Assembly: GCF_000003815.2 (NCBI RefSeq)
Contig: NC_049979.1
Span: forward strand, 3,935,248 to 3,999,247
Direction: 5' to 3'
DNA from: Branchiostoma floridae
Taxonomy: Eukaryota; Chordata; Leptocardii; Amphioxiformes; Branchiostomatidae
Length of the DNA stretch: 64,000 nucleotides
Part shown: one piece after another, positions 60,101-63,647 of the stretch
Position numbering within the stretch: the stretch's first letter is position 1
How the letters are laid out: each line of letters begins with the position of its first letter
Notes under the pieces: generated by a model
The model's database searches: none
Seen by the model: only the letters and a program-made list of their open reading frames with translations
Told to the model about the DNA's origin: nothing
Program-made: the position numbers and the translations under genes

Positions 60101-62879
60101 ACCTAAAACACAACCTTCTTGCAAAAGGCAAGAAAAACATGACAACTCTAGAGTCTCCAATGTAAGTGTGCTGTGAAAATATGTTATCTTTTGTCAATGT
60201 TCCTGTTACCTTCTCGCCATTGAATTTGGACTATTTTCACAACACACAAACGGTTACAGAGCACCTGGAGATGAGCACCTTGTGACCAGAAAAAAAACAT
60301 TAAACAAGGACAACAACAACAGCAGCTTGTTACCCTGCCAGTTGGGCACGTCCGTGGTGACGGGAGGCGCCGGTGCCACCGCCGCGGCGCTGCTCTGCTT
60401 CTGGTGGAAGGTGGGCACCGCGGGCTCCTGCTGCTGCGCTCGGGCGGCCCTCACCTGCGCCGCCGCCGCCTGCTGCTGCTGCACCACCCCGGCAGGCTTT
60501 CCCGGGACCTGCTCGTTACTCTCTTCCCGCCTGTCGCCCATGTTGACTCTGAGGCAGTGCGAGAGAAGATGGATCACTTTCATGTTTCCTTCGGAACTAC
60601 ATCTACCCTACAATAAACCCCTGAGCTCGCATCATCCACCGATCAGCGAGCTCTCTGGTGAGGAAAACACATTTTTCCTGGACGGAACAGCGCTGTACTT
60701 TGGAGGGCGGGTTTAGAAATGCCTGCTAGAAAATGTCCGTACGAATTTTTGATATCCATATAGGGAGGTGGCTGCCGAAATTTCCGCCGTATCACACCGG
60801 CTTCGTGTGTCAACTCTTCGCTTCGCGGGAAGACGGAAAAATGGAACGAGTTTTTCGATACGGCAGCCCGTCTGTCAGATAAAAATTATGCCGACGTTAC
60901 TACAGTACAAGAGGGGGTCGCCCCACCAAAACCCGGCGAATTTGCATTCATGTCGCGTCTTCACTCAGCTTGCCGTAAACGCTACGAGTTTCGCCCGGTT
61001 ATCGCCCTGCTCCCATGCCGACAGTCCCGGAAAACTCCGGCTGTGTATCGGCTGGAGGTAAACTGGGTCTGCTGAGATAGAATCACACACATCGCTCTCA
61101 GAAACTTCAAGTATGACAAACTGACTACAGGCGCAGCTTCGCGTACCTACCAATTTTCTCGATTTCCCGACTTCCTGCGCCAAATCTCACCCACCCATGG
61201 GGACGAGTAGTATCTTCGCTAAGTTCAAAGTTAACAAGACTTGGTTAATTGATAGTTTCGGTGCTGTGGTACGTGGAATATTACCTAGAAGAATGTCCAG
61301 CTCCGAAAATGACTTGCCCCGGGCGCCATATTTGGCTTCCCGATCACTCCCATGATGCCACGCGTGGGTGGGACGTACCACTGGGGAAATGGGGTCAATG
61401 TTTACAAACAAAAAGTGGAGGGACAAAAAGTTTTGTAAAAAGTAAAACGAGTTTACTTAACTTTACATCACCGGTTACACCATCCGAAAAAATAAGAAAC
61501 TCTTTGACCTGGTATGGATTTCATATGATGATGATGATGATGAATTACAATAAAATAAAATTTGAAGTTGAGAACTTTTGGTTAAAGTGTGATAAATGTT
61601 TTATTGTGTATTTCCCAGACCCATAACTTTGTAACTTGTGCCCAATACAAACTGAGCACCAAATCAATACAGACTGGTTTTACACATTTACATGCTAAAA
61701 TAAAGAAATTATCATTCAAATACTAGATACACAAATACTAGCCTGTATCTGACACACTTTAAATTTCATTCATCTACTTGTGATACCATGTGAAAATTAA
61801 ATCTGAATCTGAAAGGAGGAGAACGTTTTTTTGACAAAGGGAAAACCATAGCCTGACTAAAATCGCGCTCCTACCGGCCGGCCCTACAATTGCCGCCGCT
61901 CAAGGGGGAGGGGGTCATTAAACCCAGCCAGCGAGAGATTGTGTAAACAAAGGCTAGCGAAAAATACAGCTGTATATGGTCAGCTACAAACTTAACAAAT
62001 AGAACTACAAAATATTCCTTAAAATCCAACTTGCAGAACAATACAGGCTTAAGTATGGAAAGCTCTGATACAATCAGGTGGGGACAACCATCGACTTTCA
62101 GTACATCTTTTCTAATGACAAAGCAAATTTTGTGTATATACAATTAAGGAAACCTTAGTAAAAGAAGTCTCAAAGTCCAGGGCAACTGTTCCCACATAAT
62201 TCCGCATATAAAATTAGCTGCTGTCAGTTAATTTTGGTTGGTGAGGGCAGGTTGAATGTTGCTGGTTAAAGAAGACAGGTGGTTGCTTTGGAGGGGGTCT
62301 TTTATTTATTTATTTATTTATTGGTTTGGCTGCACCGAACACACAGCCAGGGCTGCCCAACTAGCCTATGGCTATTACAAAGGGCTAGGGGTCTTTACTA
62401 TGTAAAAATGGATGGGACTGTTTCACAGTGTCCTCTGGCGGCAGGTGGTTGCTCAGAAAGGTTTCACTCTATTGACGTTCTTGTTCTTGTTTTGATACTT
62501 GGTAACACCCCTTAGTGTTGGGGCAATCCACCCAGGGCGCAGTACGGCTGTTTTATTGGCCGTGTTGTAACACCTCTTCCTTGAACTTAACGGGATTAGC
62601 TTGAAGGATGGTTGAGTATGGTAGATTATTCCAGATGATAGTGGTTGTTGGGAAGTATGAGTATTTGAGACAATCTTTATTGGTCTTGAGTTTGTGCTTG
62701 ACGTATTTGATATCCATGTGTCTCCGCAGACCCGTGCCTGTACATTCACCGTTTCGCGCACAAGCTGGAGTTCGGGGAGCGGACCCACGAGGTGTCGATG
62801 ACTGCCCTGCGCCTGGTGTCGCGGATGAAGCGGGACTGGATGCACGGCGGCAGGCGGCCCTCGGGGCTGTGCGGAGCAG
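39191..62879 (+). CDS. BRF1: BRF1, TFIIIB subunit of RNA polymerase III (5' six exons)
   Basis: Exons 39191-39374, 40710-40790, 41247-41420, 45431-45462, 46362-46434 and 62730-62879 give 231 residues in frame; the gene continues past the window. Residues 7-29 are the zinc ribbon, Cys7, Cys10, Cys26 and Cys29, with the family signature [20 protein letters not shown]. Then come [12 protein letters not shown] and the first cyclin fold ([50 protein letters not shown]). Exon 6 leads into the second fold ([29 protein letters not shown]). Exon 4 is only 32 nt ([10 protein letters not shown]). In the family BRF1 recruits TBP and Pol III to tRNA and 5S promoters. Intron 5 is 16.3 kb and contains a whole gene on the other strand. 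Confidence 0.95.
39511..39597 (-). mobile_element. tRNA-like sequence, probable SINE head
   Basis: On the minus strand GGCCCCGTGGCTCACATGG resembles an A box and GGTTCGAATCCCACT is a perfect B box. The two are too far apart and the arms do not pair as a functional tRNA. BRF1 intron 1. Confidence 0.5.
40185..40385. repeat. Dispersed repeat shared with 47330-47560
   Basis: GGCATATGTCTTTGGGACTGCAGCAGAACTT and GAACATGCTATGGTCATGATTTTTGAGTG match the second site with ~80% identity by eye. The family is unknown. Confidence 0.55.
40506..40646. mobile_element. Mutator-like MITE, TAATCTCCAAGCAGATC end, 9-bp TSD
   Basis: A 141-bp element from TAATCTCCAAGCAGATCC to GGATCTGGTTGGAGATTA. Exact target duplication GATACCAGG at 40497-40505 and 40647-40655. 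BRF1 intron 1. Confidence 0.88.
40934..41212 (-). mobile_element. LINE 3' fragment with ORF2 C-terminal zinc finger
   Basis: The minus-strand frame ends [25 protein letters not shown], the C2H2 knuckle that closes many non-LTR retrotransposon ORF2 proteins. It is followed by ~130 nt of 3' UTR and a GTTCAAACAAACAAAC tail. Its acceptor-side neighbour is BRF1 exon 3. A second copy of the same 3' end lies at 43853-43935. Confidence 0.6.
41526..41600 (+). repeat. Partial extra copy of BRF1 exon 3 donor edge
   Basis: TAGAACGGAGGGGA and GTTGTAGTTTCCACGTAGATGTGTAACTC repeat 41401-41475, the last codons of exon 3 with the following intron, at a distance of about 125 bp. The donor itself is not preserved in the copy. 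Confidence 0.7.
42000..43852. other. BRF1 intron 3, unique part
   Basis: No repeat ends or ORFs of note. At 43040-43160 and 43560-43860 the sequence is less AT-rich and without repeats, which might mark conserved non-coding elements; this is a guess only. Confidence 0.3.
43853..43935 (-). mobile_element. LINE 3' end remnant
   Basis: On the minus strand GAGCTTTCATGAATAAACAAAGGTTCAAACAAACAAAC matches the 3' terminus of the fragment at 40934-41212. Confidence 0.55.
44293..44497. mobile_element. MITE with GAGGGTCTGCATG ends, copy 2
   Basis: Inverted termini GAGGGTCTGCATG and CATGCAGACCCTC. Interior repeats GTAATTCGTAG and TTTAGCGTAAT. Inverse of 8844-9050 and more complete. Confidence 0.8.
44939..44963. 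repeat. (ATC)n microsatellite
   Basis: Eight CAT/ATC triplets in BRF1 intron 3, followed by a sequence starting GGCATTCGCTCGTGACCGAGC that looks like a repeat end, family unknown. Confidence 0.85.
45970..46361 (+). repeat. Minisatellite seeded by the BRF1 exon 5 acceptor
   Basis: About twenty units of GTTACAGGTGAATGTGTCT (17-24 nt) run straight into the true exon 5 junction TGTTCCAG|GTGAATGTGTACG. Each unit carries a CAG acceptor and the first exon bases. Unit length is dominated by a 19-20 nt step with shorter GTTACAGGTGAAT variants. Confidence 0.92.
46435..48130. other. BRF1 intron 5, first part
   Basis: Mostly unique. A repeat starts at ~47218 with the hairpin ATCTCCATGAAAAATGGAGAT and runs to ~47560, where 47330-47560 matches 40185-40385. 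No coding exon of BRF1 or another gene is recognisable. Confidence 0.4.
48131..50517. mobile_element. Mutator-like MITE interrupted by a second transposon
   Basis: The left 12 bp TAATCTCCAAGC (48131-48142) and the right part from CAAGCAGATCTTG (50416) to GATCTGCTTGGAGATTA (50517) form one ~114-bp element. It is flanked by the 9-bp target duplication CCTCACAGC (48122-48130, 50518-50526). The interruption is the 48143-50415 element. Confidence 0.9.
48143..50415. mobile_element. 2.3-kb transposon, CAGGGCTCGAAATAC ends, with a giant palindrome
   Basis: 2273 bp from CAGGGCTCGAAATAC to GTATTTCGAGCCCTG with 5-bp target duplication CAAGC (48138-48142, 50416-50420). Subterminal words TTGCACCAGTGCAAGT repeat at both ends. 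Inside, ~48170-48890 and ~49040-49750 are inverted copies. Each arm has CRE-like TGACGT words, a CpG-rich segment and an ORF (48573-48779 on plus; 49074-49343 on minus) sharing [14 protein letters not shown], (S)VLTFSFP and [12 protein letters not shown]. No transposase is seen. The arms look like captured host 5' gene sequence (inference). Confidence 0.85.
50640..51295 (+). repeat. 19-bp minisatellite (TAGCCAGTGAAAGTGTTCC)
   Basis: Roughly 33 units in a row, with variants GCATCC(A/G) and AGGCAGTG that are themselves clustered, showing local unit duplication. The first units (50640-50830) are the most diverged. Confidence 0.95.
51328..51430 (+). repeat. Two 49-bp tandem units
   Basis: GATGGTATCAGATACAGGTC and GTATCAGTGAGAGT(A/G)GGGACG repeat once, directly after the minisatellite. 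Confidence 0.9.
51559..51867. mobile_element. Non-autonomous DNA transposon, AGGGGTGGG ends
   Basis: Termini AGGGGTGGGTAC and GTTCCCACCCCT. Interior GGACCGG / CCGGTCC words repeat. Flanks GTCATCCACT and GTCCTCCACT are near identical, suggesting a target duplication, though its exact length is unclear. Confidence 0.7.
52401..53340. repeat. 60-bp tandem repeat and diverged duplicate flanks
   Basis: Units of AAGTGCATATTTGCCTTAAACCTGCCACATTTGTCTCACATTGGG occur about 3.5 times at 53046-53262. The outer segments 52470-52570 and 53210-53325 (TTACTAAGTGC... CAATGAAGCTATTACT) are copies of each other. A TACTGTAAA / TGCATTTACAGTA pair at 52401 and ~52877 marks an old MITE shell. Confidence 0.65.
53461..53787. 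mobile_element. Decayed CAGGGCTCGAAAT-family element between 68-bp direct repeats
   Basis: The right end TTTTGAGCCCTG is intact; the left end is degraded (TTGGCTAGAAATGC). Subterminal words are GTGCAGGT. The flanks 53393-53460 and 53788-53855 are 68-bp direct repeats with a few differences. Confidence 0.6.
53856..56440. other. BRF1 intron 5, middle part
   Basis: No gene. It contains two direct TCTGCTTGGAGA transposon ends (54630, 54829), the CAGATATCTGTATCT / GGTATAACCGCC repeat (54482-54540) and a possible decayed element rich in GTGCAC words at 55975-56290. Confidence 0.4.
56450..56690. mobile_element. Foldback MITE (CTACTCAAACAACTGGAT arms)
   Basis: Arms AAGCTACTCAAACAACTGGATA and TATCCAGTTGCTTGAGCAT with inner TTTCAGACAACAGCCACTATCTTC / inverse. 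Related to 7515-7790. Confidence 0.65.
57111..57284. mobile_element. MITE with CTCTCCAAGCAGAGGTTAGG ends
   Basis: Inverted ends CTCTCCAAGCAGAGGTTAGG and CCTAACCTCTGCTTGGGGAG. The arms continue as TTTTTCTAGGCGCTTTTGTCGGG and its inverse. Related to 37359-37556 and 9358-9562. Confidence 0.8.
57312..57445. mobile_element. Mutator-like MITE, TAATCTCCAAGCAGATC end, 9-bp TSD
   Basis: 134 bp with exact target duplication GTGTCAATC at 57303-57311 and 57446-57454. It ends 15 bp from the BTBD6 stop codon, so it lies in that gene's 3' UTR. Confidence 0.88.
57461..60541 (-). CDS. BTBD6: BTB-BACK-PHR protein, BTBD6/BTBD3 type
   Basis: Four exons in transcript order: 60334-60541, 59569-59803, 58903-59094, 57461-58301; 1476 nt, 491 aa, all phases fit. 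The N-terminus is Gln/Ala-rich. The BTB fold starts around residue 75 ([40 protein letters not shown]). BACK follows ([39 protein letters not shown]). The C-terminal PHR domain ([29 protein letters not shown]) ends [10 protein letters not shown] as in BTBD3 and BTBD6. In the family these are CUL3 E3 ligase adaptors; BTBD6 acts in neurogenesis by removing PLZF. An in-frame ATG at 60583 could add 14 residues. I recall human BTBD6 also lying within BRF1 on the opposite strand. A minus-strand AATAAA at 57019-57014 may end the transcript. Confidence 0.93.
58679..58885 (+). mobile_element. tRNA-derived SINE
   Basis: A box TGGCACAATTGGCAG, B box GAGTTCGAACCCC, then the body TTGGGAAAGGCACTTTACACCAC-TTTCCTCACTTC seen in many invertebrate SINEs. 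It ends in a GAAAGAAGAAGAAG tail. BTBD6 intron 3, antisense to that gene. The anticodon arm does not fold, so it is not a tRNA gene. Confidence 0.8.
60030..60097. repeat. (CA)n / (GT)n compound microsatellite
   Basis: CA repeats, then GT repeats, then CA repeats, forming a small inverted repeat in BTBD6 intron 1. Confidence 0.85.
60584..61200 (-). promoter_or_regulatory. Probable 5' UTR and promoter of BTBD6
   Basis: CpG-richer than its surroundings and free of repeats, directly upstream of the BTBD6 start. No TATA box is clear. The transcription start cannot be placed. Confidence 0.4.
61201..62289. other. BRF1 intron 5, last unique part
   Basis: Unique AT-rich sequence with a short (GAT)n at ~61528-61543. 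The phrase TAGCCTGACTAAAATCGCG (61853) resembles 55008, so a dispersed repeat end is possible. No gene. Confidence 0.35.
62290..62727 (-). mobile_element. 5'-truncated LINE: ORF2 C-terminus and 3' UTR
   Basis: The minus strand reads [11 protein letters not shown] then [16 protein letters not shown] and [14 protein letters not shown], the conserved end of non-LTR retrotransposon ORF2 (pattern RxH, SFFPRTxxxWNxLP). ~260 nt of 3' UTR follow, with a (TAAA)n tail at 62300-62325. The 5' truncation point abuts the BRF1 exon 6 acceptor. Confidence 0.75.

Positions 62880-63647: not shown

Follow-up and report, generated by a model that had tools for sequence, protein, structure and literature searches.

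Why should a conserved exon be followed, inside its own intron, by repeated versions of its 3′ end, each with a splice donor, and does the gene make any use of them? The question is raised by BRF1 in the lancelet Branchiostoma floridae, in a 64,000-nucleotide stretch of contig NC_049979.1 (positions 3,935,248–3,999,247 of the forward strand in assembly GCF_000003815.2; hereafter, the window), where the end of one BRF1 exon and its donor stand in seven tandem copies at 62789–63648. In all probability, this array is a mirage minisatellite that is turning over and is skipped through use of the first donor.

Tandem Repeats Finder (TRF) reported a single array at 62789–63648 with a period of 129, 7.0 copies, 88% matches and a score of 1201, on the strength of which a chance repeat was rejected. 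The repeat unit consists of 91 nt of the exon’s 3′ end, then GTACGT or GTATGT, and lastly a (TTTG)n tract. All copies lie on the plus strand. Copy 1 (62789–62905) comprises the 91 nt of authentic exon end, the donor and a (TTTG)n tract; differences from it are synonymous throughout in copies 2 (62906–63034, 4 differences), 3 (63035–63155, 5 differences) and 5 (63285–63413, 3 differences), which leaves the encoded peptide identical, and the peptide is altered in copies 4 (63156–63284, 10 differences), 6 (63414–63530, 8 differences; TMLRL..MKWD) and 7 (63531–63648, 5 differences; MRALRL). Pairwise, the copies differ at 1–12 of 91 sites. The intronic GTACGTG(TTTG)n tails of copies 1–6 measure 26, 38, 30, 38, 38 and 26 nt, and copy 7 merges into unique intron after a final TTTG tract. 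The donor reads CAG/GTACGT (the slash marking the splice boundary) in six of the seven copies, with identical nine-mers in copies 1–6, and CAG/GTATGT in the last, so that CAG/GTAYGT is kept in all seven. TRF and the alignment of copies thus agree on what an earlier note, made by a model from the letters alone, had described: the end of a BRF1 cyclin-fold exon with its donor and a TTTG tract, seven times in tandem, offering seven candidate donors. When the whole assembly was searched as DNA (513,431,437 bases in 431 contigs; the search scores best candidates only and skips simple repeats), the 859-b array matched itself and four 33–39-b fragments on C10, and no second such array was found in these 513 Mb.

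The amplified exon, the sixth found for BRF1 in the window, spans 62730–62879 on the plus strand (150 nt, phase 1 at both ends; CCGCAG/ACCCGT … GAGCAG/GTACGT). Its translation matches residues 176–226 of yeast Brf1 (phmmer, E = 3.7e-10) and Pfam TFIIB (E = 7e-11); the exon is therefore predicted from homology to encode part of the TFIIB/Brf1 cyclin repeat, and the identity proposed in the earlier note holds.

The original paper on mirages is said to be Canestro 2002. PMC3087553 characterizes mirages as minisatellite-like tandem duplications of exon–intron boundaries in amphioxus, with units of 10–72 b in Adh3, an acceptor-side array in BflGb6 (3′ intron end and 5′ part of exon 2, units of 150–160 b) that numbers 6 units in one haplotype versus 3 in another, and, in BflGb9, an exon 2 whose 3′ boundary is duplicated, on the donor side as in BRF1; PGBD5 mirages of 60 and 108 b were added in PMC3902484. 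The unit of the BRF1 array likewise spans an exon–intron boundary (91 nt of exon plus GTACGTG(TTTG)n, in seven copies), and the splice signals are duplicated with it (seven donors of seven). It resembles the lancelet mirages of Adh3, BflGb6/BflGb9, PGBD5 and troponin C, which are tandem arrays of boundary-spanning units, many with AG/GT signals and 10 to 160 b long, but differs in its donor-side position combined with seven copies, in the TTTG microsatellite embedded in the unit, and in that the preceding exon of the gene has an acceptor-side array of its own. The BRF1 array is thus a further member of the class of lancelet mirages; a search of the open-licence literature found no report of this array, which adds a well-preserved donor-side case to a little-studied phenomenon. 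The unit also carries AGGT at both ends (TTGAGGT…GCAGGT), and hence possible new splice sites, as in the intron gain by AGGT tandem duplication set out in PMC3443670; in contrast to that model, the extra BRF1 copies sit inside an intron that already exists, with no new one shown.

We envisage that the donor-boundary segment of the exon (91 nt of exon and about 26–38 nt of intron) would have been tandemly duplicated in a lancelet and that unequal exchange, gene conversion or slippage would have expanded it, with partial homogenization, to seven copies, the TTTG tract adding further changes in length. In the pre-mRNA, the first donor would complete the normal 150-nt exon and the six downstream copies would leave with the intron. 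Since local signals barely distinguish the seven donors, we infer that the nearest one is picked through exon definition set by the upstream acceptor, with near-exclusive use of donor 1. Such a choice would fit the published splicing of other mirages: Adh3 data and globin reverse-transcription PCR (RT–PCR) suggest regular splicing (PMC3087553), and mirages of Adh and troponin C are stated to yield no aberrant mRNAs (PMC3902484). The array is probably spliced out without effect, and seven near-identical donors in near-identical local context provide a natural test of exon definition.

Which products the other donors could give is limited by the reading frame. The spacings between copies are 117, 129, 121, 129, 129 and 117, and five of the six are multiples of three, as had been noted. 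Donor 1 gives the ordinary 150-nt exon, and the frame is kept only by donors 2 and 3, whose inserts of 117 nt (39 additional amino acids) and 246 nt (82 additional amino acids) both stay open; the 121-b spacing between copies 3 and 4 breaks the frame, and donors 4–7 run into a TGA at 63155–63157, where copy 4 begins. A stop-free, in-frame insert is accordingly available to two of the six extra donors and not to every one. Use of single copies as cassette exons was rejected on reading of the sequence, since the 88-nt cassette from a T-rich AG to the donor would shift the frame. If donors 2 and 3 were used to an appreciable extent, the resulting in-frame BRF1 proteins would contain repeated cyclin-fold segments and could be kept by selection, and both the identical donor nine-mers of copies 1–6 and the open inserts are in keeping with such a switch. 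Donors 4–7 nevertheless meet a stop, and an insert from donor 2 or 3 would fall within conserved sequence of the cyclin repeat, the part after the junction being taken from human BRF1. With published mirages appearing to splice normally (PMC3087553 and PMC3902484), we regard this switch as very unlikely, although occasional use of donor 2 or 3 is possible, and a reading in which insert-containing isoforms are likely is not supported. The same TGA could instead serve regulation: transcripts spliced at donors 4–7 would stop prematurely and undergo nonsense-mediated decay, which would tune the level of BRF1. All of these donors do reach it, but any out-of-frame repeat would do likewise and, according to PMC3902484, the Adh and troponin C mirages yield no aberrant mRNAs; we give this possibility next to no credence.

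Whether the copies are under selection bears directly on their use. The 91-nt exon part is free of stops in all seven copies when translated, in line with the earlier description of every copy as protein-like, and long stop-to-stop frames do run across several copies (62711–63157 over copies 1–3 and 63075–63776 over copies 4–7). When copies were simulated under neutrality with as many differences as observed, all of them lacked a stop in 35% of cases, for which reason selection was not inferred from the absence of stops. The in-frame spacing is similarly unconvincing as evidence for selection because it comprises only three distinct lengths, the TTTG tract changing in steps of four.

Other observations weigh against an array that is simply skipped and turning over. 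Third positions account for 11 of all 19 variable columns (P = 0.022, nominally significant) and, without copy 4, for 8 of 12 (P = 0.017). The exact peptide of the exon is encoded by three of the six intronic copies, a number reached in none of 5,000 simulations of independent copies (two reached two). Variable columns also cluster, with 16 of 19 in columns 13–43 of 91 (62802–62832 in copy 1; scan P = 5e-5), or 9 of 12 without copy 4 (P = 0.03), and simple neutral decay does not explain this clustering. Finally, the repeated signals of amphioxus mirages could act as cryptic splice sites, as is pointed out in PMC3087553. The third-position excess, the three unchanged peptides and the purely synonymous differences of copies 2 and 3 would also suit selected use of donors 2 and 3. 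However, no significant codon bias is seen among the changes restricted to a single intronic copy (8 of 16 at third positions, P = 0.12), and the independent-copy simulation is too strict a control, in that the copies share changes, which violates independence and ignores shared descent. Differences are shared between copies in three columns (17, 23 and 32), each of them a third position, which would be expected if exchange passes the exon’s constrained history to the copies. The comparison of synonymous and replacement changes proposed in the earlier note came out divided: copies 2, 3 and 5 carry synonymous changes only and the excess over all columns would favour purifying selection on the intronic copies, whereas the private changes show no significant excess. 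That preserved coding sequence hints at use is not supported. On the simplest reading, the copies inherit the exon’s constrained history through exchange, and weak selection on them is possible.

An alternative interpretation is that the array, or its copy number, arose from haplotype collapse or mis-joining during assembly. A block of exactly 5,000 N (L006:1349–6348) starts at the base after the end of the window, 352 bases past the array and at the expected place of the next BRF1 exons, and PMC3087553 mentions that the genome draft seemed to carry a misassembled haplotype of the BflGb6 mirage. We nevertheless consider an artefact highly improbable because the pairwise differences of 1–12 in 91 sites mean that the copies are not one stretch read repeatedly, other arrays of the mirage class are present in the assembly, and for the PGBD5 mirage re-sequencing is stated to argue against assembly error (PMC3902484).

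Besides the array at 62789–63648, the window carries three further boundary-spanning arrays. One lies in BRF1 itself, at 45969–46371 on the plus strand, with units of about 19 b (TGTTACAG/GTGAATGTGTC) that sit at the acceptor of the preceding BRF1 exon (46362–46434) and 21 matches to YAG/KTGAW, authentic acceptor counted. The other two, on the minus strand, each contain an acceptor and exon start: at 31763–31935 (90 b × 1.9; VNGVSTSPM...) in a GH13/rBAT-like gene, and at 33168–33495 (112 b × 2.9), beyond which copies of greater divergence reach about 33640. Similarity to GH13 enzymes and to the transporter subunit rBAT was seen for the exon at 31.7 kb (PDB, E = 1.6e-6 and 3.5e-5; Pfam alpha-amylase just below the cut-off); the 33-kb exon, for which a Pfam search gave no match, probably belongs to the rBAT-like gene, by reading.

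Arrays coincide with splice boundaries more often than expected across 29961–63000, a span with 29 boundaries, of which 11 are in BRF1 (checked) and 18 in the rBAT-like gene (approximate, placed by eye). Four of seven arrays with a TRF score of at least 90 lie on a boundary versus 0.39 expected (P = 2.1e-4), the excess persists when six shorter arrays are added (13 arrays, P = 8e-4), and 3 of 12 lie on a boundary once the 62789–63648 array is removed (P = 0.005), in a test that is post hoc and small and rests partly on eye-placed boundaries. Both sets exclude 33481–33533 (score 85, adjoining the 33168 array), 50780–50838 (within the array at 50671), duplicate rows and a TA repeat at 30293; a short array at 35621–35652, 14 b from a boundary, was scored as a miss. 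Splice boundaries might be preferred birthplaces of minisatellites in this genome, triggered at the exon edge, with donors 2 and 3 of BRF1, a gene hit at two successive exons, now and then giving in-frame variants, a combination that we consider very unlikely. Should the placement of arrays on exon edges, as in these two neighbouring genes, prove to be a genome-wide pattern, it would be relevant to the origin of minisatellites and of new introns.

Arrays of the same class occur elsewhere in the assembly. The globin family gave nine matches, some perhaps within one gene, and all nine loci were scanned by TRF (score of at least 120). At L018:954–1601, a 158-b × 4.2 array of acceptor and exon ends in the real exon and fits the BflGb6 mirage; seven of the nine loci had no array at this threshold, and a 17-b array was seen at L013. 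For the mitochondrial-carrier family, 111 matches were obtained; 30 were made into loci and 17 of these scanned for direct repeats, L032 being left out for its length and the other 12 lying within 3 kb of scanned loci. Direct-repeat families were present in seven of the 17 (L043, L023, L024, L026, L037, L038 and L045), with the relation to exons read at L043 only, where units of about 142 b containing acceptor and exon precede a carrier exon at L043:1008–1540 in four copies, the real exon included.

Upstream of the amplified exon, five further BRF1 exons, placed by comparison with a human BRF1 sequence, lie on the plus strand (one ending at 39374; 40710–40790; about 41247–41420; 45431–45462; 46362–46434). 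A 16-kb BRF1 intron precedes the amplified exon, and a 19-b × 33.6 minisatellite lies inside it at 50671–51295, away from the exons found. Behind the 5,000 N, sequence resembling BRF1 3′ exons, by eye, resumes; the downstream loci L006–L009 were also scanned by TRF, and from L006:8580 onward, right after the last BRF1-like stretch, a RING/TRIM-like open frame was recognized by reading. At the other end of the window (742–888), a 47-b unit repeated 3.1 times covers an apparent coding 3′ end, including its stop codon, and extends the repeat into the following sequence.

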